Below, piece after piece: positions 1,961 to 20,266 of a DNA stretch of 21,779 nt. Location of the stretch: assembly GCA_029256645.1 (NCBI GenBank), contig JAQSXM010000007.1, positions 1-21,779 of the forward strand. The letters run 5' to 3'. The DNA comes from Sporomusa sp. Lineage in GTDB: Bacteria > Bacillota_C > Negativicutes > Sporomusales > Sporomusaceae. The translations under genes were made by a program, and so were the position numbers. Position 1 is the stretch's first letter. Every line of letters starts with the position of its first letter. The notes beneath the pieces were generated by a model. That model made no database searches, was not told where the DNA came from, and saw only the letters and a program-made list of their open reading frames with translations.

Positions 1961-2800
1961 CTAGTAGCCGATCACTTCGTCCGGTCTCCACCACAGGACA
2001 AAGGTTTTGGTTTTCCTAAGAAGTTTGAACCCTCCGTCTTGATTTGGTATTAAATAACGGTCAACGTTGCTGCGGTATTGCTCTTCAAATTCCGGGAGAA
2101 TCTCGCCGACAAAACGCAGATCTGCATAGGCTTGTTCACGGGAAACATAATCACGCTCAAAACCGTCATCCACAACAACGATATTCGGGTTCGCCCCCAT
2201 GTCATACACCATGTTGAACATCATGTTGTAGCCAAACATGCGGGCAGCAGGATCATGCGGCATTTTTTCCTGCCCAATACCTTCAAGAAAGTCTAACTGT
2301 ATTTCCCGGAGACTGGGGGCATTTGCCCAACCCAAAATATAGACATATTTTCTGGCAATCTGGTTGATTTTCACTAAATCGGAAAATCCCACTGAGCGTG
2401 AGGCAATGGCAATATCATATTTGCCAACGTTTTCAACCGCGTCTTTCGCCAGCCAGTTCGATCTCATTGGCGTAATATTGTGGACTCCTTCGCTCCTGGC
2501 ATTTTCCATGCATTTTGCCAGCATCTCCTCGGAAACATCCAAGGCAGTGACACTCTTTACCTTTTGGGCTACAGGAACAGACAACCGTCCTGGTCCACAG
2601 CCGATGTCGATTACCGAGTCCTCTGCAGACAACAGCATCTGCCCCACCTGTTTTTTGGTAAACTCCTTTTCAAGTTTCGCCATTCCGTCATACATACCGG
2701 CAACACTGCCCCATTGTTTTTCTTGAGCAGCCTCATCCATATTGGCAAATGGCATTTTCCGGTACTTTTGCAAAGCTTCCCAGTTAATTAATCCCTTCAT
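1961..2800 (-). CDS. Class I SAM-dependent methyltransferase, last gene of the uptake operon
   Basis: A 279-aa cytosolic protein with a Rossmann-type SAM domain. Motif I is VIDIGCGPGR at residues 63-72, and the acidic residue that would contact the SAM ribose is D88 (ALDVS). About 60 residues precede the SAM fold, and the C-terminal half shows no motif I recognise. It is not clearly UbiE, BioC or a precorrin methyltransferase. The ATG follows an AGAGGTG site, 68 bp after the substrate-binding-protein stop, and a terminator follows, so it is co-transcribed with an iron-complex-type ABC transporter. That suggests it modifies the imported ligand or a related cofactor (inference). Fold sure; substrate unknown. 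Confidence 0.85.
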   Translation of the reverse strand: MKGLINWEALQKYRKMPFANMDEAAQEKQWGSVAGMYDGMAKLEKEFTKKQVGQMLLSAEDSVIDIGCGPGRLSVPVAQKVKSVTALDVSEEMLAKCMENARSEGVHNITPMRSNWLAKDAVENVGKYDIAIASRSVGFSDLVKINQIARKYVYILGWANAPSLREIQLDFLEGIGQEKMPHDPAARMFGYNMMFNMVYDMGANPNIVVVDDGFERDYVSREQAYADLRFVGEILPEFEEQYRSNVDRYLIPNQDGGFKLLRKTKTFVLWWRPDEVIGY

Positions 2801-2868
2801 CTTTACACCTCTTTAACATCAGCCGATTTATTTTTTTCAACCCTCCCGGAACCGGCTAAACCTTATCC

Positions 2869-3945
2869 TTACCGGGCCGGAGGTTTTCCATTGATTATTC
2901 TGTTTGCCTCTTCTGCCGAAAGATCATAATTTAAAAAAGTCCGGTAAAAAAAGCGGGTTTCCTGAACGATGTCAATATCCTGAAACTTATCCGGATGCAA
3001 AATTTTTGCCGCCCACTGAATTTGCAACGCTTCCTCCGCACCGTACCGGTCCCAGAAAAAAGCCCCCTCCGGGTTGATATACACCTTCCCCGTTTGTACC
3101 GCCTTAAGTCGCCGCCACTTTTCATCCTGCAAGATTCCGTTCAGCGCTTTCGCTCCATCTTCCACTCCGTTCAAGGCCAGTGCCGTATTGCCAAATATAA
3201 TAACGTCGGGATTCCATGATATCAGTTGCTCCATCGATACTTCACCGCCGGTATCTGCTGCATTGATTCCCCCGGCAACCGTTATCCAGGCATTAATGAT
3301 AGTATCCCTTCCGTCTACCATTAATGGTGCCAGCCTTGTAATATGGATAACCTTTGGTTTTTGTTCCCGGGGAATCCCCTCGGTTATTCCGGTTATCCTG
3401 TTGAGGTTGTGATCCAGGTAAGCGATATATTTTTCCGCTCTCTGCTTTGCTTCCCCGCCAAGAATGACACCGGTTAACCGGAAGCACTCTTTCAAGCTGT
3501 CAAAATCGTTAAACATCAATTGAACAACCGGAATCTTTAAATCAGCTATTTTTTGGGCGCTTTTATTATTCAGCGGCGTAAAAACAATGTCCGGTTTGGC
3601 GGCCATCAGGGTTTCCAGATTTACACCCGTAGTATCAAAAGCCGTAACCGCCTGACTCATTTGTGGATTAACGACCTTCATCCAGGGCCGTTGTGCCGCC
3701 GCAGTCGTCGTCGCAACGATTTTATCACCCGCCCCCAGCATGCACACAACCTCATTGTGAGCAGGCCAGGCATCACCAATCCGTTTAATCTGCGCTGGTA
3801 TTGCCACTTTTGCGCCACTTGCATCGGTAATCGTGATTTGTTTGGGATTTACTGCCGGTTGAGCCTTAAAAGCGTTCTGGCATCCGGCTAGGAAAATGAG
3901 TAAGATAAAAATGCCGCCCAACATGGTATGCTTTCCTGTTTTCAC
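2869..3945 (-). CDS. ABC transporter substrate-binding lipoprotein, FecB/BtuF-like
   Basis: Periplasmic binding protein (358 aa) of the helical-backbone class used for siderophores, heme, corrinoids and some nickel or cobalt chelates. A lipobox LAGC at residues 19-22 makes C22 the lipidated cysteine. The body has the usual two-lobe signs: IKRIGDAWPAHNEVVCMLGA near the start, NLETLMAAKPDIVF in the first lobe and WNPDVIIFGN in the second. The tail (FFWDRYGAEEALQIQWAAK, then HPDKF and FYRTFLNYDLS) resembles a metal-chelate-binding subfamily. The start is GTG at 3945 after a GGGGGTGA site; an ATG 5 nt upstream is out of frame. It lies 41 bp after the receptor stop, within the operon. The ligand cannot be assigned from sequence alone. 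Confidence 0.9.
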   Translation of the reverse strand: MKTGKHTMLGGIFILLIFLAGCQNAFKAQPAVNPKQITITDASGAKVAIPAQIKRIGDAWPAHNEVVCMLGAGDKIVATTTAAAQRPWMKVVNPQMSQAVTAFDTTGVNLETLMAAKPDIVFTPLNNKSAQKIADLKIPVVQLMFNDFDSLKECFRLTGVILGGEAKQRAEKYIAYLDHNLNRITGITEGIPREQKPKVIHITRLAPLMVDGRDTIINAWITVAGGINAADTGGEVSMEQLISWNPDVIIFGNTALALNGVEDGAKALNGILQDEKWRRLKAVQTGKVYINPEGAFFWDRYGAEEALQIQWAAKILHPDKFQDIDIVQETRFFYRTFLNYDLSAEEANRIINGKPPAR

Positions 3946-3986
3946 CGCATCACCCCCTGCTTTTGCCTTCCGAGCACCTGTTCCTG

Positions 3987-5993
3987 TTAAAATTTCTTAC
4001 TGATCTCTACCCCGTATTCGGCGCCGGCATCATAATAGTTCATGCCTCTGCCATAACGCCGGTCGGTGATATTGCGCCCGTACAGGGTAAGTTTGGTACG
4101 TTCATCCAGGTCTTTGCTGATGTTGGCGTCGATAACGGTATAGCCGCCTAACTTAGTGGCGTCCCCCATAGAACTTGCAAACCGACTGAGGTGCAGCAGG
4201 TTGATATTGGCCGCGATATCGGCCTGCCTGTAGTTCAGCGCCAGATTGTAGCTGTTATGCGGTATATAGCTGTCATCCAGGGCGTTGCTGGAAGTAAAAT
4301 AAGAATATCCGGCTTTATAGCCAAACGTGTCGGACAAACGGCCATGCACCGACAGTTCCAGCCCTTTGCGCGTCAGATCCCTTCCGGTATAGGTAGTTAC
4401 ATTCATGCCATTCTCTGCATCGTAATACGTTTTTCCCGTAAAAACCCGGGCATCATTGATATCATATAAAAATGCCGTCAGCGAGGCATTGAGAGCCTTG
4501 TTATAGCTGGCCGTAACGCCTGTTTCATATTTATAACGCACTTCCGCATCAAGCAGCTCGTTGTTTTCCGTAAGCAGATACCTGCCTGCGGGCTGACGCG
4601 AGTAGGAGAAACGCGAAGACAGTTTATAGACCGGATCCAGCTGATAAGCAGCTCCCAGGGATAAGCTGACAGCTTCTTTATCCCATAGTTCCCCGTATGT
4701 CGTGTCGTATTGTATGTTGCTGCCGCTGCCGCCCGTGAAATATTTGGCGACGCCTTTGGTAACATGTTTTCTGTCCAGCCGCGCCCCGGTATCCAGCGTC
4801 AGTTTATCATTGACCCGCCTCTCCCCGTACAAATAGTAGCCGTACAGTTCCTCCTGGCGTTCATAGCCGGCCTGCCCCTGCACCCCGGTCGGTGAATGCC
4901 ACCACATGGCCTGGACGCCGAATTTCAGCGTATCCCGGCCAAAGTTCAGCGTATGCGCAAGGTTTAATTCGCGCAGGTATTCGTTTTCTTCCCAGCTCGG
5001 CTTTATTGACGGCGATGATACCAGCGCAATCCGGCTGGACCGCACCGAGCTATAGCCAAAACTAAAGGTTGTCGTGTGGTTTTCATCCCATAGTTTCGCC
5101 GCATTTGTTGTAAACAGCGTCGTATTAATGGGATCCCATTTGCCCAGGCTGCTGTAGCGATTCAGGTAACTGCCGTCTTCGTTAAACCATACTTGCTGAC
5201 CACTCCAGCCATTGTTGACAATCAGGGTCATATCGGCAAACCAGTCTTCGCCTTTATCGCCGGCCTTTAAAAAATAAGTATCAAAATTTCTGCCGTTAAA
5301 CCAGCCGGACCTGCCGTCGCTCCTGTCTTTTGCGTACCCCAGCGCATAATAAGCGGTGTCACCGGTTTTATCGCCATGCACGATGCTGAATTTTTCCGTA
5401 TCAAAAGTACCGTAACTCAGCTTGGCTTTGTCAACAGGCTCGGTTACTTTCAGGGTTTCTATGATAATGAAACCCTGACTGGGAGTGCCTCCCTTGGCAG
5501 TATTGGTGGCAAAATTGGCAATGGGACCCAGTGTCAGAATGGAGGCGTCCCGGACAAGGGTGATGGATTCGATCAGGTCAACCGGTAGATTGGCCAAAAT
5601 ACGCGAGGCCTGCGTGTCGGGCAAATAGACCCCGTCAATGATGATCCCGATATTATCGCCGCCGCGCGCCTGGACTTTGTAATAGCCCTTATTGCCCCAG
5701 CGCGTACCAATAATCCCGGTGCCGCGTTCGAGTATTTCCAGCACATCTTTGGGATGCATGGCTTCAATAGCTTCCCGGGTAATGACTTCCGTCGCCGCCT
5801 TGCTGCTTTCCGGAATGGCTAAACGGCTGTAGGCCGGTGTTTCCTCCTCTGCCTTTTGTGCCTTTACCATGACCGTCGACATTTCAGTGTCTTTAGCGGC
5901 AGCTGGTTCTTCCGCCCAGGCAGGCACTACCGCACCGACCATAGTGGACAAAACAATCGCTGCAACTGTTTTTCCCATCTTACTTTTTTTCAC
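3987..5993 (-). CDS. TonB-dependent outer-membrane receptor (uptake operon)
   Basis: A 668-aa ligand-gated porin that uses TonB energy to move a metal chelate or cofactor across the outer membrane. A signal peptide ends at AWA (residues 25-27), a TonB-box-like stretch MSTVMVKA lies at 38-45, the plug spans roughly 55-165 (IDGVYLPD, then IESITLVRDAS), and a beta barrel runs to a terminal phenylalanine, as expected for BamA-dependent assembly. The plug lacks the usual GGxxNIITK-like motif seen in the second receptor of this window (FATNTAKGG stands in its place). The start is GTG at 5993 after AGGAGTG; M6 is an alternative. It lies between the ATPase and the binding-protein genes with 30-bp and 41-bp gaps, so it is operonic. 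Substrate not determined. Confidence 0.93.
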   Translation of the reverse strand: MKKSKMGKTVAAIVLSTMVGAVVPAWAEEPAAAKDTEMSTVMVKAQKAEEETPAYSRLAIPESSKAATEVITREAIEAMHPKDVLEILERGTGIIGTRWGNKGYYKVQARGGDNIGIIIDGVYLPDTQASRILANLPVDLIESITLVRDASILTLGPIANFATNTAKGGTPSQGFIIIETLKVTEPVDKAKLSYGTFDTEKFSIVHGDKTGDTAYYALGYAKDRSDGRSGWFNGRNFDTYFLKAGDKGEDWFADMTLIVNNGWSGQQVWFNEDGSYLNRYSSLGKWDPINTTLFTTNAAKLWDENHTTTFSFGYSSVRSSRIALVSSPSIKPSWEENEYLRELNLAHTLNFGRDTLKFGVQAMWWHSPTGVQGQAGYERQEELYGYYLYGERRVNDKLTLDTGARLDRKHVTKGVAKYFTGGSGSNIQYDTTYGELWDKEAVSLSLGAAYQLDPVYKLSSRFSYSRQPAGRYLLTENNELLDAEVRYKYETGVTASYNKALNASLTAFLYDINDARVFTGKTYYDAENGMNVTTYTGRDLTRKGLELSVHGRLSDTFGYKAGYSYFTSSNALDDSYIPHNSYNLALNYRQADIAANINLLHLSRFASSMGDATKLGGYTVIDANISKDLDERTKLTLYGRNITDRRYGRGMNYYDAGAEYGVEISKKF

Positions 5994-6023
5994 ACCGCTT
6001 CACTCCTGTTAAATAATATATCT

Positions 6024-6839
6024 TTATCCCGTCTTTTCCGATGTGGAAGCTGTCTGGGCAGACAACGGGATGCAAGCAGACGCATCTTGTCCATCATTTA
6101 ACTGCAAATGAACAATTTGCACATTGACACCATACGTGTCTTTTAAATATTGTTCGGTAATCACCTGATGGGGAGCGCCGGTTGTAAGACTGCCGTTCTT
6201 TCTTATTGCAGCCACCTTCGACCCATATCTCAGCGCATGGTTGGGATAGTGGGTGGTCATCAGCACGCCGATGCCGGATTTTGCGACCAAGTCGCGGATA
6301 TAGTCCAGGACCCGTATCTGATTGCCAAAGTCCAGACTGGAAGTAGGCTCATCCATAATCAGAAATTCCGGCTGCTGCGCCAAGGCCCTGGCGATCAATA
6401 CCAATTGCCGTTCGCCGCCGCTGATGCGGGTATAGATGCTGTCGCGTAAATAGCCTATGGATAATGTCTCCAGGGCCTGGCCGGCTATTTTCATATCGGC
6501 GGACGATGGCGATCCAAACAGCCCCAGGCGGGCGCTCCGGCCCATCGCGACCACATCAAGCACGGTAAACGGAAAGGGCGGTGTGTGGGCTTGGGGAACA
6601 TAACCGATTTTTGCCGCCAGCTGCGGCTGGGACCAATTGGCAATATTCTCCCCATTCAGCAATATTCTCCCGGACTGAATTTTCAATAACCGTAAAATAG
6701 TTTTGAATAACGTGGTCTTGCCTACTCCGTTAGGTCCCAGCAAACACATGAAATCACCGGAATGAATTTCAAAGGAGATCCCTTCAATAACCGTTTTGGC
6801 TCCATAGCCACAAGAAATATTGTCAACTGTAAGAATCAT
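6024..6839 (-). CDS. ABC transporter ATPase, FecE/BtuD family
   Basis: Cytosolic ATP-hydrolysing subunit (271 aa) of the iron-complex/corrinoid-type importer. All motifs are intact: Walker A GPNGVGKT at 35-42, Q-loop Q83, signature ISGGERQ at 139-145, Walker B FLIMDEP at 159-165 and switch histidine H197 (TTHYPNH). The last 20 or so residues after the ATPase fold are polar and have no recognised role. The ATG at 6839 follows an AAGGGGTGG site and lies 21 bp after the permease stop. It would pair with the permease at 6861-7892 and the binding lipoprotein at 2869-3945. Confidence 0.95.
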   Translation of the reverse strand: MILTVDNISCGYGAKTVIEGISFEIHSGDFMCLLGPNGVGKTTLFKTILRLLKIQSGRILLNGENIANWSQPQLAAKIGYVPQAHTPPFPFTVLDVVAMGRSARLGLFGSPSSADMKIAGQALETLSIGYLRDSIYTRISGGERQLVLIARALAQQPEFLIMDEPTSSLDFGNQIRVLDYIRDLVAKSGIGVLMTTHYPNHALRYGSKVAAIRKNGSLTTGAPHQVITEQYLKDTYGVNVQIVHLQLNDGQDASACIPLSAQTASTSEKTG

Positions 6840-6860
6840 GCTGCCACCCCTTGCCGACTG

Positions 6861-7892
6861 TTAAGCCCATCCTTTTCGCGTATGTAAGAGAAGATAGAGA
6901 AAAAACGGCGCCCCGATTATCGATGTCAAAATCCCTAAGGGAACTTCCACAGAGAACATCGTCCGCGCTAAATCGTCCACCAGCAACATAAATATACTCC
7001 CCATAACGATTGAGACCGGGAGTAAAATTTTATAATTAGGCCCCACCAGCAACCGGGACAAATGGGGCACCACCAGACCCACCAGACCGATGACTCCGCT
7101 AATGGCCACTGCCGACGCCGTCACCATTGTTGCGCAGACCACAACAATAATCCGCAGCCGGACGGTATTTACCCCTAAGGCTTTAGCCTCTTCATCACCA
7201 AAAGACATAACATTCAAATTCCAGCGCAGCAGTGTCAGCACGAACAGTCCGGCCACAATCGGAACAGCGGCCAGATACACATCACGGTCGTTAACAGAGG
7301 CCAGGCTGCCCATCAGCCAATAGGTAATGGCCGGCAGTGCATCGTTGGGGTCGGCCACATACTTAATCAATGAAACAAACGAAGTAAACAACGTTCCTAT
7401 GATAATGCCCGCCAGGATCATGACCAGAATCGTCTCGCCTTTTTTTCCCAGCCAGAGGGTAATCAGGTATGTTGTCGTCACGGCCAGTAAGCCAAAGGCA
7501 AAGGCAGCCAATTGAATGCCAACGGCATCGAGAGACAACAAGATTGCCAGGGCTGCACCAAAACTGGCACCGGCTGTCACGCCTAAAATTCCGGGGGAAA
7601 CCATTGGATTGCGGAACATCCCCTGGTAAGCGGCACCAGCGGCTGATAAGGCCGCTCCCACCAGGATGGCGGCCATAATTCTCGGCAACCTGATTTTTAG
7701 CATGACAATTTCCAGATCCTCGGTCCAAAATGGTGTCAGGTGAATGATTTTTGACAGAAGAATCCCCAGGGCGATATCCGGGGCAATCGGATATCGCCCT
7801 ACCAGGAAAGATAAGAAAAATATAGCGGCTAACACCATAATTAATATGGAAAGTTTTATTGACTCAGCGGACTGCTCAGTTACTTTGGCCAT
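6861..7892 (-). CDS. ABC transporter permease, FecCD/BtuC family
   Basis: Inner-membrane channel subunit (343 aa) of a type II importer for iron-siderophore, heme, B12 or similar ligands. It is hydrophobic throughout, with about ten membrane segments expected for the family. The ATPase-contact region is recognisable as GLVGLVVPHLSRLLVGPNYK in the C-terminal third. I start it at the ATG at 7892, which has AAGGGG 6 nt upstream, rather than at the TTG at 7916. Only one permease is present, so it probably works as a homodimer. A 158-bp gap separates it from tonB upstream; I saw no terminator or known riboswitch there, so read-through is likely. Confidence 0.95.
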   Translation of the reverse strand: MAKVTEQSAESIKLSILIMVLAAIFFLSFLVGRYPIAPDIALGILLSKIIHLTPFWTEDLEIVMLKIRLPRIMAAILVGAALSAAGAAYQGMFRNPMVSPGILGVTAGASFGAALAILLSLDAVGIQLAAFAFGLLAVTTTYLITLWLGKKGETILVMILAGIIIGTLFTSFVSLIKYVADPNDALPAITYWLMGSLASVNDRDVYLAAVPIVAGLFVLTLLRWNLNVMSFGDEEAKALGVNTVRLRIIVVVCATMVTASAVAISGVIGLVGLVVPHLSRLLVGPNYKILLPVSIVMGSIFMLLVDDLARTMFSVEVPLGILTSIIGAPFFLYLLLHTRKGWA

Positions 7893-8050
7893 GTTATCCC
7901 CTTCAATCCCACACAACCGTTATGAATAGACCTACGCCATCCTCATCACGGCTGTTCAAAATATCCCGCCTCAACCGTTTGGCTGTCCATACCCGCTTCC
8001 ATACCGGGCTGCCGGCCGCCCTGTCAAAGCTTCCTGCTGATCACACTCCA

Positions 8051-8749
8051 TTATTCGAGTTCAAAAATAACAGGTACAACGACCCAAGCCGGAACCGGGC
8101 GCCCGCCTTGGTAGGCCGGGCTGAAGCGCCAGCGGCGCAGGCCGTTGACAGCCGCCTGATCCACGCTGCCATAACCGGAGCTTTGCACAATTGCCGTATC
8201 GCCGACTACACCTTTTTCGAGGATTAAGACCCGTACGCGCACCATTCCCTCCCAGCCGCGCAGCCTGGCTTCTTCCGGATAAGACGGCGGCGGACCGTCG
8301 ATGACATAGGGAAGCCGGCCTGATCCGCTATATGGTGAGCTTGAGCTCCCCTGGGCGTCATTGCCCTTGCCGCTAACAGACTGGCTGGCCGTATCAGTGC
8401 CATTACCGGCCTGTCCTATTTTTTCTTGCACCGGCATTTTTTTACTTACAGCATTACGATCAACAGTGGGAGCAGTATCAGAAAAAACCGGATCGGCTTC
8501 AGGCGAAAGCCGACTGTTAGTGACTGGTGCATCCCGGCTTGGCGGTGAATTGGGCTCTGCCGCTTGTACCGGCGCATCAGCAGGATCGTCCCCCATGTTA
8601 TACTCACCCAATTCCACTTCTATCGGCAGCAGCGGCTCCGGCAAAGCCTCCGGTTTATCCCGGAAATAAAAAAAACTAATGCCTGCAACAAGCATCAGAT
8701 GGACAGTTGCGGACAGGCAAAGTGCGATTCCCCAGCGTTTTTGCATCAT
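8051..8749 (-). CDS. tonB: Energy transducer TonB
   Basis: A periplasm-spanning protein (232 aa from the ATG at 8749) that passes proton-motive energy from an ExbB/ExbD motor to outer-membrane receptors. The N-terminal membrane helix carries the family SxxxH motif (SATVH). A proline- and serine-rich linker follows, then a C-terminal TonB domain starting at PPPSYPEEARLRGWEG and ending VVVPVIFELE. A GTG at 8758 is possible, but the ATG at 8749 overlaps the stop of the preceding small ORF as ATGA and no strong ribosome binding site precedes it, which fits translational coupling. No exbB or exbD lies in the window, so the motor must come from elsewhere. It heads the transport genes and probably serves both receptors here. 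Confidence 0.9.
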   Translation of the reverse strand: MMQKRWGIALCLSATVHLMLVAGISFFYFRDKPEALPEPLLPIEVELGEYNMGDDPADAPVQAAEPNSPPSRDAPVTNSRLSPEADPVFSDTAPTVDRNAVSKKMPVQEKIGQAGNGTDTASQSVSGKGNDAQGSSSSPYSGSGRLPYVIDGPPPSYPEEARLRGWEGMVRVRVLILEKGVVGDTAIVQSSGYGSVDQAAVNGLRRWRFSPAYQGGRPVPAWVVVPVIFELE

Positions 8750-8877
8750 TGCAGCCACTTTTTATTTTCTACAGCAATTACTACTGGGGCAATGTCAGCC
8801 GTTTTACTTAGCATCGCCACTCCAGATACCAACACCGGTTTACCATTCAAGCCAACACGTCCGTTCTTGTCTTTCAT
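8746..8877 (-). CDS. Small hypothetical protein upstream of and coupled to tonB
   Basis: A 43-aa ORF starting MKDKNGRVGLNGKPVLVSGV and ending KKWLQ. Two extra codons are possible from a GTG at 8883. A purine-rich stretch GGAGGCGGGG lies 7-12 nt before that GTG. Its TGA overlaps the tonB ATG (ATGA), and its own ATG overlaps the stop of a still shorter open frame upstream (TCATGA). It has a moderately hydrophobic middle but no clear membrane helix. I do not recognise it; it does not look like HemP/HmuP. It may be a real small protein or only a coupling leader for tonB. Confidence 0.4.
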   Translation of the reverse strand: MKDKNGRVGLNGKPVLVSGVAMLSKTADIAPVVIAVENKKWLQ

Positions 8878-9065: not shown

Positions 9066-9156
9066 GTGTTGTATATCCATAGAAGAATTAAACTAAAAGA
9101 CAGGAAATGCATACCCAAAAGCAATTAACTATAAAAAGACTGCAAGCAAATAAACT

Positions 9157-9202
9157 AGCCCCTAATAATAGACACTTTTAAAGAAGTGCATTATCAGGGG
9201 CT
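9157..9202 (-). terminator. Hairpin terminator of the hydrogenase-like/FmdE-like operon
   Basis: Inverted repeat AGCCCCTAATAAT (from 9157) against ATTATCAGGGGCT (to 9202), extended inward by a CACTT/AAGTG pairing. On the minus strand it is followed by AGTTTATTTG, only moderately U-rich. Its first bases coincide with the TGA at 9204-9202 that ends the open frame beyond the FmdE-like stop. Confidence 0.65.
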
Positions 9203-9315
9203 CAGTTTAATATATATACCCAAGTTGACCTTGACAGAATGTAACCGCCCGCCATTCCTGCAGCCATCTGCTTTTCGGGCCAGGCGCCCATGGCAATCAG
9301 GCGACTGGTCGCTTG

Positions 9316-9861
9316 CTACTCAAGCTTCGGTATTTCCATAACATCGAATAATGCTTCGGCCGGGCTGGACATGAGAAACTCAGCAATCTCTTCTTTTAAG
9401 AGGGTAAGCCGTAAAGCATCGGCTAAAGTCAGGGTATCATCATGGGTTTTATAGGCAAGGGTGATAAATTCCGCCGGTAAGAGTCCGTGTTTTAAAGAAA
9501 AAATACGTTTCTTGCCATTGTAGGTTATCTCAAAATAATATCTACCGCCATAACCATCTGCTGCATCAGGAGCGTTTTTGGTGAGGGCAGTCTTGGGGTC
9601 AATCAGCATCGCTGACCGCGTTTTCGCGCGGGTAACCATTTCGAAGCCATCAATAATCCCAGGGCCCTGGACGCCAATCATGATGGCAAAATTTCCCCGC
9701 GAGGGTGGTTCATGCGGAGAAAGCTGGCTGAAAGCAAGTTCCATCAGCTTAAATGCCATTGCTACACCACCGATAAACTCCCGCCCGTGGTATTTAACCA
9801 TGTCCTGAAAGGTTATACTGAGCACATCATTGCGGTCTTTAATTAGTAATACCGGCTCCAT
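9316..9861 (-). CDS. FmdE-like family protein without cysteines
   Basis: A 181-aa protein whose N-terminal half resembles the FmdE (formylmethanofuran dehydrogenase subunit E) fold: ITFQDMVKYHGREFIGGVAM, then MELAF, then GPGIIDGFEMVTRAKTRSA. In typical members the first motif is HGHxCPG. Here only H25-G26 remain and the protein contains no cysteine at all, so a classical metal site is unlikely. The start is an ATG after a strong AAAGGAGG site, 88 bp after the hydrogenase-like stop. The TAG at 9318-9316 is followed in the same frame by 37 sense codons that end at the terminator, so the gene could be longer by read-through or truncated by a nonsense mutation. Family assignment is moderate, made by eye; function unknown. 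Confidence 0.6.
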   Translation of the reverse strand: MEPVLLIKDRNDVLSITFQDMVKYHGREFIGGVAMAFKLMELAFSQLSPHEPPSRGNFAIMIGVQGPGIIDGFEMVTRAKTRSAMLIDPKTALTKNAPDAADGYGGRYYFEITYNGKKRIFSLKHGLLPAEFITLAYKTHDDTLTLADALRLTLLKEEIAEFLMSSPAEALFDVMEIPKLE

Positions 9862-9949
9862 AGTTTCCTCCTTTACACTTATTGATTTATATTACTAAAA
9901 TCATGCTAAATTAATTTTTTTAATAGATTTCATATAGGCAATAACCTGA

Positions 9950-11068
9950 TTACTTCCAGATAAAATCAGCCAGGTCTAACTCGCGGTCAAATCGCTGAAA
10001 GGCTGATTCTGCATTCTGAGTTTGGCTTGTGGAAGGTTTCCCGCCTCCTGCCGTTAGACTGCTGCCCGGATAAGCACCCACGCCGGTCCCGCTGTCGCAT
10101 CCGGCAGCACAGTTATAGACTTCCAGCAGGGTAGGCAATGTTTGCTGGTTTAGCAGCGCCGACTGATAGCCTGCCAGAAAATTGTACACTGAGCCGGTCC
10201 CGCTGATTTTCTGATATCTCCCTGCGGGAAGATACTCAGCAAAACACTCACAAACCCCGCCATGAGCACCGAGCGTCAGGCCGTTACCTTCGTACGAATC
10301 GGTAAAATCGACCGGTTCATAGTTGGCCAGGTTGATACCGGCCGTATGGAGATATTGCTTCAGGCGGTTAATTGTGACACTATATTTGATCCCATACTGA
10401 TTGGTCCTGTGCCGGCGTATCTCGCCGCGCTTGGCGATACAGGGCGATAAGAAAGCAAACGGCTCGCTGACAGCAGTATTATATTTTCTCAGGTAGATGG
10501 CGGTACACTGGAGCGGGCTATATACCGGCATCAGATGTTCCTTTAGGCGGGGGGCATGGTAAATAATATAGTTGTTGACTGCCGCACAGGGAGAGGAGAT
10601 AAAGGGAGTGTCCTTCTTACGCCGCAATATTTGAAGATAAGCCCATATTGTAATATCAGCCCGCAATAGAACGTTATAGAAAGATTCAACCCCTAAAGTC
10701 TTCAGAAATCCAAACAGCTGCCGATAATCAGGGAAGTGTCGCCGCACTGCCGGCGCCACCAGCAGTGACAACGTTCTGCCTGCAGCCAACTCATCCAGGA
10801 AAAGCTCAATATCATCCTGATAGTCAACCGCTTTGTGCGGACAGCGCTGGTAACAGGCACCACAGGCAATACAGTCCTGATTAACAATCGGTTCCACCGA
10901 CAGACAGCCTGGATTTGTATAGCTATTGCCGAGCGGACAGGATTTCAGGCAGGCCTTACAAGTACGGCACTGGCGATCAACCACGCTGATTTCTGTTTGG
11001 CGCAGCAGTGGTGTCATTGTGCAGACTGGCGCCTGAGCCCCTGCCGCCTGGCTAATACCACAAAACAT
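9950..11068 (-). CDS. [FeFe]-hydrogenase-like iron-sulfur protein (short HydS-like)
   Basis: A 372-aa soluble protein. Residues 34-44 (CRTCKACLKSC) and 66-76 (CIACGACYQRC) bind two [4Fe-4S] clusters, ferredoxin style. The remainder is an iron-only hydrogenase large-subunit domain with degenerate H-cluster motifs: L1 SSPCAAV (C161), L2 LSPCIAKRGE (C210, K213, E216) and L3 EVYNCAAGCDSGTG (C320, C324). All four H-cluster ligands are kept, but the proton-relay cysteine of TSCCP is proline (P160). This is like sensory-type hydrogenases rather than fast catalysts, yet no PAS or kinase domain follows. The start at 11068 has AGGAGGT 5 nt upstream, so it overlaps the preceding gene by 55 bp. It is probably a redox or H2 sensor, or a reductase for the imported compound (inference). 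Confidence 0.8.
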   Translation of the reverse strand: MFCGISQAAGAQAPVCTMTPLLRQTEISVVDRQCRTCKACLKSCPLGNSYTNPGCLSVEPIVNQDCIACGACYQRCPHKAVDYQDDIELFLDELAAGRTLSLLVAPAVRRHFPDYRQLFGFLKTLGVESFYNVLLRADITIWAYLQILRRKKDTPFISSPCAAVNNYIIYHAPRLKEHLMPVYSPLQCTAIYLRKYNTAVSEPFAFLSPCIAKRGEIRRHRTNQYGIKYSVTINRLKQYLHTAGINLANYEPVDFTDSYEGNGLTLGAHGGVCECFAEYLPAGRYQKISGTGSVYNFLAGYQSALLNQQTLPTLLEVYNCAAGCDSGTGVGAYPGSSLTAGGGKPSTSQTQNAESAFQRFDRELDLADFIWK

Positions 11069-11532
11069 AAAATACCTCCTGCCGCCCCGGTGATCAACTG
11101 GGGCCAGCTCAGCATCATTTTAACAATCATTGCTAACTTCTCCGGCATATTGACAGCCAGTAACAGCCATGTCACCGAAAAATAAAGGCCGGCCATCTTT
11201 AACCCTGAGGCTGCGGCAATAGCTACCCAGCGATTGGTTGACAGGAATATTCTATACCCTGTGATGTACAGGATATTCGCAGCAGCCACCGGGATAATCA
11301 GTACCGGGACAGGTAGAGCCTGCTGGAGATACGCAATAACGGGGGCGGTAACCCCCAGAATCATGGCCGCCTGCCAGCCGGCGGTTTCCACAGCGGCAAG
11401 CAGGCAGGCATTGACAGCACTACCAATGACAAACATGGATACAAATGCAGGTACTGGTACAAACAGGCGCAGGGATTGAAATATAAACATCAGAGCCAGC
11501 AATAAGGCTGCTCTCGTCATTTTACGGTACAT
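11014..11532 (-). CDS. Small multi-pass membrane protein, ECF S-component-like
   Basis: A 172-aa, strongly hydrophobic protein with about five to six membrane segments. Its N-terminus (MTRAALLLALMFIFQSLRLF) and its compact size resemble substrate-capture (S) components of energy-coupling-factor importers, though I recognise no vitamin-specific motif. The ATG at 11532 follows GGAGGG. It sits 58 bp after the receptor stop and overlaps the hydrogenase-like gene by 55 bp, so the three are surely co-transcribed. Position suggests it moves across the inner membrane what the receptor brings in, or anchors the hydrogenase-like protein; both are inference. No ECF ATPases or T component are in the window. 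Confidence 0.7.
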   Translation of the reverse strand: MYRKMTRAALLLALMFIFQSLRLFVPVPAFVSMFVIGSAVNACLLAAVETAGWQAAMILGVTAPVIAYLQQALPVPVLIIPVAAANILYITGYRIFLSTNRWVAIAAASGLKMAGLYFSVTWLLLAVNMPEKLAMIVKMMLSWPQLITGAAGGILCFVVLARRQGLRRQSAQ

Positions 11533-11590
11533 GTTACCCTCCAGGGTTCAGACAGTGCTCCTTTGGGATACACAGAGTCTGCGATTTTGC

Positions 11591-13543
11591 TTAGAATTTC
11601 ATCCGGATTTCGCTATGTACAAACGCTCCCTGCAAGCACAGGTCATCATCTTTTTTATTAAGCAGATTCTCAACCCCTACGCTAAGCGTATGATTTTTAG
11701 TAAGTGTTTTTTCCAGGTTGACATTCCAGAGTGCATACGATTTGTTTTTACCGCTATCATAACCGACATCAGCATACAAAAAATCACCATAGAATTCGCA
11801 CCAGAGATTGGCCCTGACTGAGTCGTGGTCATTATAAGACAGGCGTGAGGCCAGCTTATGGCGGGCCCGGTTTACTAACCGGGTATTTTTTTCATCATTA
11901 GTAGCATCCAGGTTTGTATAATTAGCTGACCAGGAGAGGGTGTCTGACAGGGGGTAACTCAGTTCGGCCTCTACGCCCTGCATGGTGACTTGGCTAATAT
12001 TTTGATAAGTCAATTGATTGCCTGAGGGCAACCGTACCTCATCAATCATATTATCAAGCTTATTAACAAAATAGGTCAGCTTGCCTGTGGCCTTCCCCCA
12101 GTCCTGTTCCAGTGAGAGCTCATAGGAATTAGATTTCTCGGTTTGCAACTGATCATTACCTAACAATGTTATATTGGTTCCATTCCGGTTGACCGAAGAA
12201 TTAATATATAGCTGGTTAGGTGTGGGGCTGCGGAAGCCTTTGGCAACATTAAGTTTAAGCCTTGAATCAGGCGTGGCTTCATAGGTAAGGCCTACCTTCG
12301 GACTAAGATTGCTTTCAAACTTACTGCTGTCGTCATAGCGTAAGGATGTGACTGCCAACAGCTTGGGTGATACTTGCCACTGGTCCTGGACGTATAATGC
12401 GGAATAATCAAGATCAATGCCAGACCCTTCCTGTTTTATACCGCCACGGGTGATCGAGTATATTCCCTGGCCGGTCTTAACCCCGGTACCCCGAAATTTT
12501 TCCGGACGGTATTCACCGCCGTAGGTCAGGACATGCTGGGGGCCGGCCTCCCGGGTCAGCCGGGCTTCAAAACCGGGCACGGTACGGTGGGAGTCCCCAA
12601 AATTCATTAACTTCGAAGTAGCCACATTATACACATCAAGTTTCTTATAATACTCGGACAGGTACGCTCTCAAAAAAACAGAGTCATTTGGGGCCTGCTG
12701 CTTATTATAGCTTAGTGAATACTCATAACGCTCATTATTATCATTGATATTGGTTTTAATCTGCACTCCTGAGGGATTTGTCTTATACGCATATTCACGG
12801 GTATCCTCATTCATATATCCTGCTGTTAACGAAACAGTTTCTTTCTCCGATAGCTGGTAATCCAGGCGGGCGCTTATATTCTCCCGCTCGCCATAGGGCG
12901 CATAGGTTGTCCCATTGCTTTTGAAGACGGCATTATTCTCCAGCCTGGAACCGGATATGGTAACACCGGTTTTACCCTGTATCCCGGAATCATACGTAAA
13001 TTGATAACGGTCTTTGGCTCCCCGGTCACCGCTGAAGGCCCCGTGGTCCAGGCTGACACTAAAGGCCGGTTCAGTCGCCCGTTTGGTGATAATATTGACT
13101 ACACCGCCCATAGCTTCTGTACCGTACAGGGAGCTAACAGGCCCGCGCACAATCTCAATGCGTTCGACATTCTCCAGTGATATCCGGTCCAGCTCATAAT
13201 TCTGATCAATCTCAGAGGATATGCGTTTGCCGTCGATAAGGATCATTGAGAAACGGGAATCAAAGCCGCGGATTGAAATGGCATCCCGCCCGGTTGAGCG
13301 GTTCAAGCTGACACTAGTGGCCGTACTGATCACATCTTTCAGCGTATGAGCGCCGCGGGCCCTGATATCTTCCTGACTTATTACCTCTACCGATGCCGGG
13401 ACTGCTTTTTTCTTCATATCAGTCTTGGTTGCCGTAACAACGACCTCGTCCAGGGCAAATTCATCAGGCGTAACCGCCTGAGCATAAGCGTGGGCTGTGG
13501 AAAATGTCAGTGCGGTTAGTGCTAAGATAGCTGCTTTCTTCAT
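11591..13543 (-). CDS. TonB-dependent outer-membrane receptor (Fur-linked operon)
   Basis: A 650-aa receptor of the siderophore/colicin/vitamin B12 type. A signal peptide ends near AYAQA (about residue 21), the TonB box DEVVVTA lies at 32-38, the plug holds RGFDSRFSMILIDGKRI and ENVERIEIVRGPVSSLYG followed by GGVVNIITKR, and the beta barrel ends in MKF with a terminal phenylalanine. I start it at the ATG at 13543, preceded by GAGGAGGAAGACACC, rather than at the TTG at 13612. It heads an operon with the membrane protein, the hydrogenase-like protein and the FmdE-like protein. A near-consensus Fur box lies 75-93 bp upstream, so iron repression is likely. The ligand is not evident; an iron chelate is the default guess. 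Confidence 0.95.
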   Translation of the reverse strand: MKKAAILALTALTFSTAHAYAQAVTPDEFALDEVVVTATKTDMKKKAVPASVEVISQEDIRARGAHTLKDVISTATSVSLNRSTGRDAISIRGFDSRFSMILIDGKRISSEIDQNYELDRISLENVERIEIVRGPVSSLYGTEAMGGVVNIITKRATEPAFSVSLDHGAFSGDRGAKDRYQFTYDSGIQGKTGVTISGSRLENNAVFKSNGTTYAPYGERENISARLDYQLSEKETVSLTAGYMNEDTREYAYKTNPSGVQIKTNINDNNERYEYSLSYNKQQAPNDSVFLRAYLSEYYKKLDVYNVATSKLMNFGDSHRTVPGFEARLTREAGPQHVLTYGGEYRPEKFRGTGVKTGQGIYSITRGGIKQEGSGIDLDYSALYVQDQWQVSPKLLAVTSLRYDDSSKFESNLSPKVGLTYEATPDSRLKLNVAKGFRSPTPNQLYINSSVNRNGTNITLLGNDQLQTEKSNSYELSLEQDWGKATGKLTYFVNKLDNMIDEVRLPSGNQLTYQNISQVTMQGVEAELSYPLSDTLSWSANYTNLDATNDEKNTRLVNRARHKLASRLSYNDHDSVRANLWCEFYGDFLYADVGYDSGKNKSYALWNVNLEKTLTKNHTLSVGVENLLNKKDDDLCLQGAFVHSEIRMKF

Positions 13544-13617
13544 GGTGTCTTCCTCCTCATAAAAATTAAAATAAGTACAAATATTTTTGAGACCACAGAA
13601 ATAATCTTCCAATAAAC

Positions 13618-13636
13618 GATAATGAAAACCTTTATC
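13618..13636. promoter_or_regulatory. Fur box between the divergent receptor and Crp/Fnr genes
   Basis: GATAATGAAAACCTTTATC matches the 19-bp Fur consensus at 16 of 19 positions on the plus strand, and 15 of 19 on the other strand. It overlaps the proposed -35 of the Crp/Fnr gene and a TTGATA -35-like hexamer of the receptor operon, so an iron-loaded Fur could repress both. Confidence 0.7.
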
Positions 13637-13660
13637 AATTGCACTTAGGTGTATTATAAT
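13632..13660 (+). promoter_or_regulatory. Probable promoter of the Crp/Fnr-family regulator
   Basis: -35-like TTATCA (13632-13637) and perfect -10 TATAAT (13655-13660) with a 17-bp spacer. The start point would be near 13667, just before the palindrome at 13676-13699. Confidence 0.55.
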
Positions 13661-13675
13661 TAAATTATGGAATAA

Positions 13676-13699
13676 AATGTGTATCTCAGGTTACACATT
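13676..13699. promoter_or_regulatory. Perfect palindrome, candidate operator of the Crp/Fnr-family regulator
   Basis: AATGTGTA, 8 bp spacer, TACACATT. It lies downstream of the predicted transcription start and ends 18 bp before the regulator's ATG, a position that suits repression. TGTG/CACA arms are typical of Crp/Fnr-family sites, though the half-sites are spaced wider than in classical CRP sites. Confidence 0.55.
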
Positions 13700-13717: not shown

Positions 13718-14401
13718 ATGGAAGATTTTATCACTGCCCTGGCCAATTGCCGTTTATTTAAAGGCTATACCAAATCAGACGTTCACAACTTTCTGCTGCC
13801 TGCTGAATACAAAATCAGCAATTTTAAAAAAAATCAGTTTATATTTAGAATGGATCAACCGATAACATATATAGGGATTATCCTCAAAGGCAGTATTGAG
13901 GTGCAGAAGATCTTTCAGTCAGGCAAGGTCATTAATCTGATTTATAAAGAAAAAGGCGAGTTGTTCGCCGAAGGAACTATATTCTCCCAAATGCCAGCCT
14001 ATCCCTGCCAGGTAATATCCCGGGAGAATACAGCTGTGATGCTGTTGCCTAAACAATACGTTATCAAGGCGCTGGCTGATGACAGCATCCTTTTAGCCAA
14101 TTTTTTGGCGCTCATGTCCGATAAGCTTATTTTTCTGAATAAAAAAATCGAGTTGTTATCCTATTGCTCAATTCAAAGCAAGATTGCGTATTCGCTATTA
14201 CACTGCATCGCAACCGACAATAATACCAGCATCATTGAGCTCCCGTATACGCAAAAGGCGTGGGCAGAGCATTTGAATGTATCACGCCCCTCACTTTGCC
14301 GGGAACTGAAAAACCTGTGCAAAGCAAAAATTATCCTGACAGACAAACGCACCATCACCATTTTGAAACGGGACAAAATAGAACAGCTGCTGAGTGAATA
14401 A
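13718..14401 (+). CDS. Crp/Fnr-family transcriptional regulator
   Basis: A 227-aa regulator with an N-terminal cyclic-nucleotide-binding-type beta barrel (about residues 5-120), a dimer helix (about 122-150) and a C-terminal winged helix whose recognition helix is in the segment AWAEHLNVSRPSLCRELKNL (181-200). The cysteines (C11, C97, C150, C163, C194, C201) do not form an FNR-type N-terminal cluster, and the cyclic-AMP-contact signature is not clear, so the effector is unknown. The ATG at 13718 has GGGG 7 nt upstream; a GTG at 13679 would add 13 residues but would start inside the palindrome. It is divergent from the receptor operon across a shared region with a Fur box, which suggests it controls that operon and itself. 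Confidence 0.88.
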   Translation: MEDFITALANCRLFKGYTKSDVHNFLLPAEYKISNFKKNQFIFRMDQPITYIGIILKGSIEVQKIFQSGKVINLIYKEKGELFAEGTIFSQMPAYPCQVISRENTAVMLLPKQYVIKALADDSILLANFLALMSDKLIFLNKKIELLSYCSIQSKIAYSLLHCIATDNNTSIIELPYTQKAWAEHLNVSRPSLCRELKNLCKAKIILTDKRTITILKRDKIEQLLSE

Positions 14402-14944: not shown

Positions 14945-15025
14945 TCATTTCAAAAAAGAATGCAGCCTTGTCTGCATACTGCACACAAAGATTATGTAAT
15001 TATTTTACAGGTTGGAGGCAACAAT

Positions 15026-17020
15026 ATGCGGATGAACTTTTTTGCAAAGTTAGTGGTCCTGGTGTTGGTTCTTACGTTGACGGCAACAGGTATCACGGGA
15101 CTTATTCTGTTAAATGGCATGGAAACAAGTCTGAAGGAGAACGTAAACCGTGAGATACAAGCCCAGGTTAGTGGCTTAAACGGGCAAATTAGCTCAATGT
15201 TACAGGAGCAAATCAAGATTGGCCAGATTATCGCCAATCATGCTCATGTCACTGGCGGCAATGCTGCAGGCGCAACAGAGCTGGTCAATGCCATTGAGCG
15301 GGTTGATTCTGCCTCTTATGAGGCTGTTAATATCGTTGACCGGGCAGGCCGGGTAACCAATTTTGCCCCGGCAGCCGGCGCCGGACGCATGATAGGTACC
15401 TCGATAGCTGACAGGCAGTACTTTAAGGATGCTATGCAGACCGGCCAAACAATCATCAGTGACGTACTTACTTCCAAAGACACAGGCAGTCCAATTATCC
15501 TTATTGCTACCCCGATTAAAGACAGTGCGGGGGCTTTTGCCGGGATCGTCTGCCAAGTCATTAAACTGGATGCGTTGGAAAAAATGCGCTCTCAGGTTAA
15601 GATCGGTGAAACAGGGTATGCGAGCATTAACACCAATGTAAATGGAAAATCCATTATCATTGCTCATCCGGATAATACACTTGTTACAGAAAAGAAAGAT
15701 GTGTTCGAAACACCGATTGTTCAGGCAGCCCTGCGAGGGCAGAACCAGTTGAATTTTAAGAACCTGGCGGGTGCTGACGTAATTGGTGCCACAGGGATTG
15801 TTCCTTTAACCAATTGGATAATTATCGCCATGGTGCCGGAAAAAGAGGTGTATGCCGAAGTAAGTGTGAATCGCTACAAGATGCTGGCAGTCATGGGTGT
15901 GACGATACTTATCGTAATCGTCATTGCCTGGTATTTTGCCCGCAGGATAGCCAGCCGTTTAACCCATATGGTGCAGCGGGTGGCGCAGGTAGCTGACGGA
16001 GACCTGAGGGCTTCGCATACCGCCAGTTTATCCAATGACGAGATTGGCCAACTGGGAAAAGCGCTTGAATCCATGACCCAAAGCCTGCGTGGCGTTATCG
16101 GGCAGGTAACCCACTCTGCCGAACAGGTGGCAGCCTCGTCGGAGCAATTAACGACAGGTGCCGAGCAGTCGGCGCAAGGAGCCGGCCAAGTAGCCAACTC
16201 CATTACGCAGGTAGCAGCCGGCACTGAGCGGCAAACTGGTGCAATTCGCAAAACCGTCGCTGTTGTTGAACGGATTTCCTCAGAGATCAAGCAGGCGGCC
16301 GCTAATGTAAATGTTGTGGAGACAACCTCCGACAAGGCCGCAGGTGCCGCTAAGGATGGGGGCAAAGCGGTTGAGGCAGCGGTTAACCAGATGATTAATA
16401 TCGAGACTAAAGTAGTCCATTCGGCACAGGTTATCGCCAAATTAGGCGAGCGCTCCAAAGAAATAGGCCAAATCGTCGATACGATATCCGGGATTGCAGG
16501 CCAAACCAATCTGCTTTCACTTAATGCGGCTATTGAAGCGGCCCGGGCTGGCGAACAGGGACGTGGCTTCTCCGTAGTAGCCGAGGAGGTTCGCAAGCTG
16601 GCTGAACAGTCGCAGGAAGCCGCCAAACAAATCGCCGCCCTGATTACAGAGATCCAGGTCGAGACTGAAAGTGCGGTCCTCGCAATGAACGAAGGTACCC
16701 GCGAAGTCAAAATCGGATCAGATGTCGTTAATTCAGCCGGACAGGCTTTTGCAGAAATAGTTTCGTTGGTCGACCAGGTATCTGAGCAGATAAAAAGCAT
16801 CGCGGCAGCTGTTCAGGGAATAGCGAGTGACAGTCAGGAGATTGTCTCGTCCGTACAGGAGATTGATGTAATAAGCAAAGAAACCGCCGGTCAGACGCAA
16901 ACGGTTTCGGCGGTCACCGAGGAGCAGTCGGCTTCTATGGAAGAAATTGCAGCCTCCAGCGAGGCCTTAGCAAAATTGGCCCAGGATCTACAAACTGTCA
17001 TACAGCGCTTCAAAGTCTAG
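15026..17020 (+). CDS. Methyl-accepting chemotaxis protein with double-Cache-type sensor
   Basis: A 664-aa inner-membrane chemoreceptor. Membrane segment at 8-29, periplasmic sensor at about 35-280 that looks like dCache_1 ([73 protein letters not shown]), second membrane segment at 286-304, HAMP to about 358, then the signalling coiled coil with [19 protein letters not shown] and [18 protein letters not shown]. Such Cache sensors often bind amino acids, amines or organic acids; the ligand here is not known. The ATG at 15026 has GGAGG 7 nt upstream, and the longer frame from 14960 lacks one. A plus-strand terminator follows. The hairpin tip is nearly identical to that of the MCP at 7-1701. 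Confidence 0.95.
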
Positions 17021-19498: not shown

Positions 19499-19547
19499 AC
19501 AAAGCGCTGTCGCCCCGCCGGGTTACATCACTTTGTCTATTTTTTTA
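19494..19547 (+). terminator. Terminator of the permease/SDR operon
   Basis: AATAGACAAAG (19494-19504) pairs with CTTTGTCTATT (19531-19541) across a 26-nt loop, followed by a T run to about 19547. The stop codon of the convergent response regulator (19539-19537) lies in the right arm. On the minus strand there is no U run after the stem. Confidence 0.8.
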
Positions 19548-20265
19548 TGATATCATGCCAATAACACAGAATCTCCTGAGCTATATCCTCAGCAATCAGT
19601 GCAGTCCGCACTTCATTGGCAAAATGAATTACATTGCCCTCAATGGCGTGAACCTGCTTCATATTGACCAGGAAAGACCGGTGAGTCAAATAAAAATAGT
19701 GGTCTTCCAGGTATTTGCAGTATACCCGTAAAGGAATTTTGGTTTCTAACTCAGCCGTTCTGGTGTGAACGTAAATCGTGCGGTTCAGGGATTCAATAAA
19801 CAGGACCTCCGCCGGGACTAATTGTTCAATATCCTGGCTAAATACAGGTATATACAGACCGCCATGCCTGATAAAGTTCTGATAATCAATATGCTTACTT
19901 AATTTCTCGATTGCTTGTCTAAAACGAAAGGGCGTAAAGGGTTTTTCAACAATATCGATAATCCCAAGATCATAGGTATAGCTGGCTTCCGGAATCATGC
20001 CTGTGACTAAAACAGCCGGAAGTTCCTTGCCACGCAGCCGCAGCGCAGCATAACTTTCCAGGCCGCCGCGTCCTTTTCCCAGGTTGAGATCAAGCAGTAA
20101 AGCATTAATCGCAGGGGTTGATGTAACCTTGCGAATTAAGTCATCCCCGTTTTTCACCATATCAACAACATGGACAAACTCACAGGCCCTTAAATTCATT
20201 AACAGCAAATCTTGTTGAAAAGGCTCGTCTTCAGCAATTAGTAAATTAATTTGAGGCTGCCGCAT
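19537..20265 (-). CDS. LytTR-family response regulator
   Basis: A 242-aa two-component regulator. The receiver domain spans about residues 5-120 with acidic pocket E12/D13, phospho-acceptor D59 (ALLLDLNLG), T88 and K108. A LytTR-type DNA-binding domain fills the C-terminal part (LVPAEVLFIESLNRTIYVHT to LTHRSFLVNMKQVHAIEG). Such proteins bind paired direct repeats and usually activate nearby genes. The ATG sits one base after the kinase stop (TAATATG), and its ribosome binding site AGGAGGG codes for the last residues of the kinase, so the two are translationally linked. Likely target: the permease/SDR operon convergent to it. Confidence 0.93.
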   Translation of the reverse strand: MRQPQINLLIAEDEPFQQDLLLMNLRACEFVHVVDMVKNGDDLIRKVTSTPAINALLLDLNLGKGRGGLESYAALRLRGKELPAVLVTGMIPEASYTYDLGIIDIVEKPFTPFRFRQAIEKLSKHIDYQNFIRHGGLYIPVFSQDIEQLVPAEVLFIESLNRTIYVHTRTAELETKIPLRVYCKYLEDHYFYLTHRSFLVNMKQVHAIEGNVIHFANEVRTALIAEDIAQEILCYWHDIIKK

Positions 20266-20266
20266 A

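Follow-up and report, generated by a model that had tools for sequence, protein, structure and literature searches.

What does an [FeFe]-hydrogenase-like protein do in an operon that begins with an outer-membrane receptor gene? The question is raised by a 21,779-nt stretch of Sporomusa sp. DNA (assembly GCA_029256645.1, contig JAQSXM010000007.1, forward strand; hereafter the window), in which four adjacent genes encode a TonB-dependent receptor, the substrate-binding S component of an energy-coupling factor (ECF) transporter, the hydrogenase-like protein and a divergent relative of FmdE (Table 1). The account that we favour, tentatively, is that this module is an iron-starvation import-and-processing unit, in which a ferric chelate would be imported and then reduced or stripped by the hydrogenase-like/FmdE-like pair.

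A preliminary description of this DNA had reported four tightly packed minus-strand genes, and their frames were re-found with exactly the junctions it gave: 58 bp between receptor and S component, an overlap of 55 bp (-55 bp) between S component and hydrogenase-like gene, and 88 bp between hydrogenase-like and FmdE-like genes. A ribosome-binding-like stretch can be seen by eye in the printed sequence at every gene start. The gene products also agree with that description, since plug and barrel domains were both detected in the receptor, the hydrogenase-like protein matched PF02906 at E 5.9e-25 (88.8 bits against a curated cut-off of 22.1), the neighbouring gene is indeed a divergent Crp/Fnr-type regulator, and what had been called a membrane protein can now be named as an S component. 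The Fur box that it had reported was recovered as the only match with up to three mismatches in the window, where 0.01 are expected (100 shuffles).

Table 1. Position, strand and supporting evidence of the features of the module and its borders in the window.
Feature	Position	Strand	Evidence
TonB-dependent outer-membrane receptor	11591-13612 (open frame); 11591..13543 (from ATG with ribosome site, 650 aa)	minus	
ECF-transporter S component, RibU-like fold, predicted inner-membrane substrate binder	11014..11532	minus	
[FeFe]-hydrogenase-like Fe-S protein, two N-terminal 4Fe-4S motifs and H-domain	9950..11068	minus	PF02906
Divergent FmdE-like protein without canonical cysteines	9316..9861	minus	relatives and profile comparison
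Terminator-like hairpin and U-rich stretch, after operon	9151..9209	minus	-30.2 kcal/mol, z -5.27
Fur-box-like site	13618..13636		16/19 to GATAATGATAATCATTATC
Divergent Crp/Fnr-family regulator	13718..14401; GTG start at 13679 possible	plus	cNMP_binding and HTH_Crp_2

The module is not peculiar to this strain. A scan of a genome collection with the hydrogenase-like protein returned 171 relatives, and the analysis kept the best 80 loci; eleven of these (L001-L011) belong to the same subfamily at 43-55% identity, and the other 69 are 31-39% identical. The FmdE-like gene follows the hydrogenase-like gene in 10 of the 11, and in L010 the sequence stops at the end of the hydrogenase-like gene. Across a class-level set of 380 genomes centred on Pelosinus (G003), the FmdE-like gene occurs in 12, and receptor, S component, hydrogenase-like, FmdE-like and divergent Crp/Fnr genes stand together in 11 of those 12, with the receptor first in eight and last in three. 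In other sets the FmdE-like gene was matched in 4 of 97 genomes, strongly in two of them and weakly in the other two, and in 2 of 15. The Crp/Fnr gene is the divergent neighbour in all 11 S-type relatives and also in L006 and L007. Measured from the first possible start codon, an overlap of 29-58 bp between the S component frame and the hydrogenase-like frame is present in 12/12 loci including the window; nine of the 12 hydrogenase-like genes start with ATG behind a GGAGG stretch, and three start with TTG or GTG and may start later. The gap to the FmdE-like gene in L101, where the position of that gene had been guessed, was left out. The preliminary description had named a gene order unique to this genome as an outcome that would tell against its proposal, and that outcome did not occur: the four-gene module is kept together in related anaerobes. 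In Pelosinus propionicus (G004; L004:1587-3610) the receptor gene is broken into two frames of 523 and 151 aa.

Fur-box matches recur with the module. Using the same consensus, we found matches with up to four mismatches in 17 of 18 module promoter regions spanning two transporter types (16 with up to three), each reached by no more than 0.3% of 300 shuffles, which were first-order Markov resamplings of the region concerned. These 17 sites represent about ten distinct sequences, the rest being common to close relatives; the loci of 17 relatives hold 39 sites with up to four mismatches in 295,166 positions, module sites included. The region without a match is that of L005 (8 mismatches), where no Crp/Fnr gene was found on the contig, the region before a large upstream gene was chosen and the true promoter may be elsewhere. 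Four loci with a receptor/S pair and no hydrogenase-like/FmdE-like core (L168, L180, L185 and L188) had no match at up to four mismatches in 11 kb each; a fifth pair, in L187, is broken by the contig end and was excluded. Since matches accompany the core in 17/18 regions and core-less pairs in 0/4, iron control appears to go with the core, and the conserved box at the promoter predicts Fur binding and regulation of the module.

The same core occurs with two unrelated importer types. In L005, L006 and L007 it is found near an NMT1-related ATP-binding cassette (ABC) importer, directly behind a protein of 1330-1400 aa (in L005 the binding protein was scanned, in L007 both the binding protein and the large protein), and the hydrogenase-like proteins of these loci group inside the operon clade. 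The FmdE-like gene of the twelfth genome (G317), and a second copy in G010, likewise stand with an NMT1-type ABC importer. The large protein lies directly upstream of the hydrogenase-like gene in L010 as well, matches BcrAD/BadFG and DUF2229 in L007, and is a possible ATP-driven electron donor.

With the NMT1 importer we also found shrunken relatives of the hydrogenase-like protein. L099 and L106 encode a remnant H-domain protein of 221-223 aa without ferredoxin motifs or the conserved lysine (profile match at E 2.4e-10), together with the importer and an FmdE-like gene. Among 71 genomes of the L035 family, 13 gave a match to the remnant, and eight of these 13 we take to be Clostridioides; of the 13 matches, one is a fragment of 82 aa and another is weak and lies within a longer frame. 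It stands with an importer in five of six contexts opened (L128-L132, the sixth, L133, being the fragment), with the FmdE-like gene next to it in L132 only, and with the same importer in both Clostridioides-like contexts opened. Seven aligned remnants have as their only invariant cysteines the four of the H-domain (7/7), and their placement in the tree is unsure given their long branches. Fur-box sites were found in L128 (four mismatches, some 18 bp in front of the remnant gene), in L130 and L132 (three mismatches) and in L131 (four mismatches), and none in L129 or L133.

Judging by gene order and annotation, L128 probably corresponds to a published Clostridioides difficile operon. The available parts of PMC6311696 report that transcripts of ssuA2, ssuB2, ssuC2 and an "iron hydrogenase-like" gene rise by 2.60, 2.91, 3.53 and 2.93 log2 at low iron and by 4.39, 4.50, 6.10 and 4.38 log2 in a fur mutant, with protein raised for the three of these genes that have values; the hydA transcript, by contrast, is down by 2.59 and 3.08. 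The hydrogenase-like gene is called uncharacterized in the literature excerpts available. This low-iron induction of a sister operon and the recurrent promoter matches support the iron control put forward in the preliminary description.

The nature of the cargo is best approached through the receptor and the S component. The best solved relative of the receptor is the colicin I receptor (Cir; E 5.6e-47), and with Cir and the ferric-enterobactin receptors nearest among solved structures it is probably of the catecholate type. Heme was ranked low as a cargo: the receptor does score with the TonB-hemin model, below cut-off, but its FRSP-GNDQL stretch lacks the histidine that heme receptors carry there. 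The S component has the six-helix S-component fold, most like that of RibU at 12-15% identity, and sequence searches for its solved relatives gave weak, unconvincing matches only. A motor gene of PF02361 (the EcfT/CbiQ family) was found in 11/11 relatives, and a shared EcfT motor is thus predicted to be available to it. As the S family is widespread and several opened contexts lack receptor and core, the family alone does not name a cargo. More distant S components (L170, L172 and L181) lie near a class IV aminotransferase gene; in L181 the aminotransferase matches a D-amino-acid transaminase model, and the S component adjoins a membrane protein of about 100-120 aa without a Pfam match.

Next to the four core-less receptor/S pairs lie a MarR-type gene and an O-methyltransferase gene (both O-methyltransferases that were scanned match PF00891). 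Together they probably form a separate two-membrane uptake unit, and these neighbours would suit an aromatic cargo. The O-methyltransferase and MarR proteins do hit the BchU and BilQ models, but with scores far short of the cut-offs. Such pairs lend weight to an alternative in which the module, too, imports something other than iron when iron is short, such as a vitamin-like heterocycle, an aromatic or a sulfur compound (to stand in for iron enzymes, say, or as a sulfur source), which the hydrogenase-like/FmdE-like pair then modifies. The RibU-like fold points the same way, as do SsuA-family binding proteins over the TIGR01728 cut-off of 163.5 in the two sister systems scanned (L106 and L128, 180.2 and 189.7 bits) and the tie between ssu and sulfur in the available parts of two C. 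difficile papers (PMC6311696; PMC7438776). It fits less well with two unrelated importers sharing one core and Fur-box matches, with the resemblance of the receptor to catecholate receptors, and with the lack of any vitamin riboswitch at gathering threshold in the window or before the module in 15 relative loci, where RNA matches were to rRNA, tRNA, T-box, lysine, c-di-GMP, intron and small RNA families. We consider this alternative plausible, if somewhat unlikely.

If a ferric chelate is the cargo, the last two proteins would act on it. The FmdE-like protein of the window shares 96% identity with a protein from Sporomusa sp. and did not match the Pfam FmdE model (PF02663) even at E 1. Its relatives provide the link, with 19 of 31 members matching at E up to 1 (best 8.9e-8) and a profile comparison (hhalign) at E 1.4e-9 over 146 columns, so that the FmdE assignment of the preliminary description stands for the family, which is homologous to FmdE, and not for the window protein alone. 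The HGHxC signature and second cysteine of FmdE are lost in the family alignments, which read YHGRxxIGG and GPGIIDG, and searches for solved relatives gave weak, unconvincing sequence matches only. Three natural fusions join the hydrogenase-like and FmdE-like proteins (P0087 and P0088, 91% alike, and P0053, to which they are about 50% alike), and the FmdE-like protein is likely the partner of the hydrogenase-like protein, with which it may work as one enzyme. The 50 rows listed by Foldseek or VIA for the fusion model included no FmdE row for the FmdE half, all being hydrogenases, which is no argument against the fold.

Canonical FmdE genes with HGHxC were near importer genes in 4/4 loci opened (L107, L108, L134 and L135; importer types partly by eye). 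Those of L134 and L135 are adjoined by homologues of the methyltransferase (30%) and FecCD permease (48%) of a second transport cluster of the window, described below, and two proteins of about 270 aa with a partial FmdE match (L135:4566-5378 and L136:3038-3850) lie beside FecCD-type transport genes. A Clostridium gene string fmdE-metM-hemABC has been published (PMC6615313, as far as its available part goes). This string and the importer genes near canonical FmdE genes are leads in favour of the ferric-chelate reading.

The hydrogenase-like protein retains the four cysteines required for the H-cluster cubane and bridge (C161, C210, C320 and C324) and the L2 lysine (K213), all invariant in 34/34 aligned proteins. 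The catalytic group A residues are replaced at the proton-transfer cysteine C299, now proline, and at methionines 353, now serine, and 497 (SSPCAAV, LSPCIAK and EVYNCAAGC); residue roles follow the available part of PMC8163306, and residue correspondence was read by eye from a pairwise alignment. The protein also ends after the H-domain, without the C-terminal Cx2Cx4Cx16C cluster or the output domain of sensory groups C/D. In a quick tree with SH-aLRT support only, the 30 rows of operon proteins form one clade (support 100), with sensor-type proteins as its sister branch (joint support 99), and all four of the latter that were scanned carry PF04060 and methyl-accepting chemotaxis protein (MCP) or GGDEF outputs. 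The maturases HydG and HydF scored over cut-off in 15/15 module-bearing genomes, which does not discriminate, as they may serve other hydrogenases.

These features bear on the proposal of the preliminary description that iron or cofactor import is coupled to an iron-sulfur sensor or reductase: the coupling fits, and the protein is sister to hydrogenase-type sensors, but it lacks their output domains and C-terminal cluster. A sensor of H2, CO or redox state would signal through the FmdE-like protein to uptake or to the Crp/Fnr regulator, whose gene adjoins the module in the loci listed, and the substitutions by proline and serine are of the kind reported for groups C/D (PMC8163306, available part). 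The shrunken relatives, however, have neither the conserved lysine nor relay clusters, and the fusions found join FmdE and not a regulator. We know of no signalling role of FmdE, and sensing is, in our judgement, unlikely. Still less probable is a trafficking role, in which the protein would accept iron or Fe-S clusters and pass incoming iron into clusters much as eukaryotic Nar1, a hydrogenase-like protein, binds Fe/S clusters without the [2Fe]H cofactor (PMC12621388, available part), since, although the invariant cysteines of the remnants are the four of the H-domain and no others, the full-length proteins carry two ferredoxin motifs and the conserved lysine, which point to a diiron site and to electron transfer, and no Fe-S assembly genes were seen by eye beside the module.

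Under the preferred reading, iron import and processing, Fur would leave the shared promoter at low iron, the Cir-type receptor would bring a ferric chelate, small and most likely catechol-like, through the outer membrane, and passage through the inner membrane would fall to the S component working with the shared ECF motor of the cell. Once the chelate is in the cytoplasm, the hydrogenase-like protein, in complex with the FmdE-like protein and supplied through its own two ferredoxin-type clusters, would reduce it or strip its iron. Several points weigh against this account. An iron-rich protein would be costly to make under iron starvation. Neither the RibU-like, riboflavin-type fold nor the NMT1-related importers with SsuA-family binding proteins (L106 and L128) belong to a known ferric-chelate class; the S family, present in 179 of 380 genomes, is not special to the module; and the receptor/S pair also occurs with O-methyltransferase and MarR genes and no Fur-box match, which leaves room for a cargo other than iron. 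The shrunken H-domain proteins without electron-relay clusters are awkward for a reductase. In C. difficile, the available text of PMC6311696 states that no Fur box was detected upstream of ssu, and its authors call the iron effect indirect for that reason; PMC7438776, in its available part, maps a SigH promoter at CD2989 and reads the ssu operon as sulfur supply. The absence of a site in L129 agrees with these reports.

A wider proposal, possible but rather doubtful, is that a branch of [FeFe]-hydrogenase-type proteins, with the cysteine-less FmdE-like partner, was recruited to iron assimilation. An H-cluster-type site would reduce or dismantle the ferric chelate, importers would be interchangeable (TonB receptor and ECF S component in diderms, NMT1-related ABC importers elsewhere), and the Clostridioides-like remnant would have kept the four invariant cysteines.

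Around the module, the hairpin after the operon could be the end of the transcription unit, and it is absent from the list given by a consensus terminator scan of the window. A minus-strand cluster at 1961-8758 encodes a methyltransferase, FecB-like binding protein, TonB receptor, ABC ATPase, FecCD permease and TonB, and is also beside the module in G308 (L100) at 82-94% identity. By eye, two MCP genes (7-1758 and 14960-17020) flank the transport region, and a minus-strand response regulator and sensor kinase pair (19537-21610) adjoins an amino-acid permease and a short-chain dehydrogenase.

To our knowledge, little has been charted of how anaerobes acquire iron. If the proposal is correct, a function would be assigned to the C. 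difficile "iron hydrogenase-like" gene induced at low iron, to the [FeFe]-hydrogenase homologues of the transport-tied branch and to an FmdE-like fold that is so far an orphan. An ECF transporter would then take part in iron uptake, and the module would represent a new way of handling scarce iron. Literature searches listed no title or abstract describing this operon, in line with the earlier view that no system of this make-up had been described; only PMC6311696, in its available part, bears on the iron response of the related C. difficile operon.

The module can be compared with several known systems. The C. difficile ssuA2B2C2-CD630_29920 operon, whose expression rises at low iron and when fur is mutated (PMC6311696, available part), shares an importer and an H-domain-derived protein, but its ABC importer is of the sulfonate family, and the loci equated with it by gene order and annotation (L128 and L129) encode an H-domain protein of 209 aa without ferredoxin clusters and with no FmdE-like gene beside it. 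The putative sensory hydrogenases of groups C/D, Tm HydS and Tam HydS, share the lost proton-transfer cysteine, the altered M353 (serine as in Tam HydS) and two N-terminal clusters with the window protein (PMC8163306, available part), which differs in lacking the C-terminal cluster and PAS or other outputs, in its transport operon and in its own clade. FmdE proteins are homologous over the 146 aligned columns, and canonical members also occur near importer genes, whereas the window-type proteins lack HGHxC, the second cysteine and the zinc-ribbon tail. RibU matches the S component in fold, length and six helices, but it binds riboflavin and the two differ widely in sequence. Finally, a Fur box and a Cir-like receptor are common to the module and to Cir/FepA catecholate receptors with FecBCD/FhuBCD importers; unlike those systems, the module uses an ECF S component or an NMT1-type ABC importer, not the FecCD type, at the inner membrane, and its cytoplasmic partner is hydrogenase-like.

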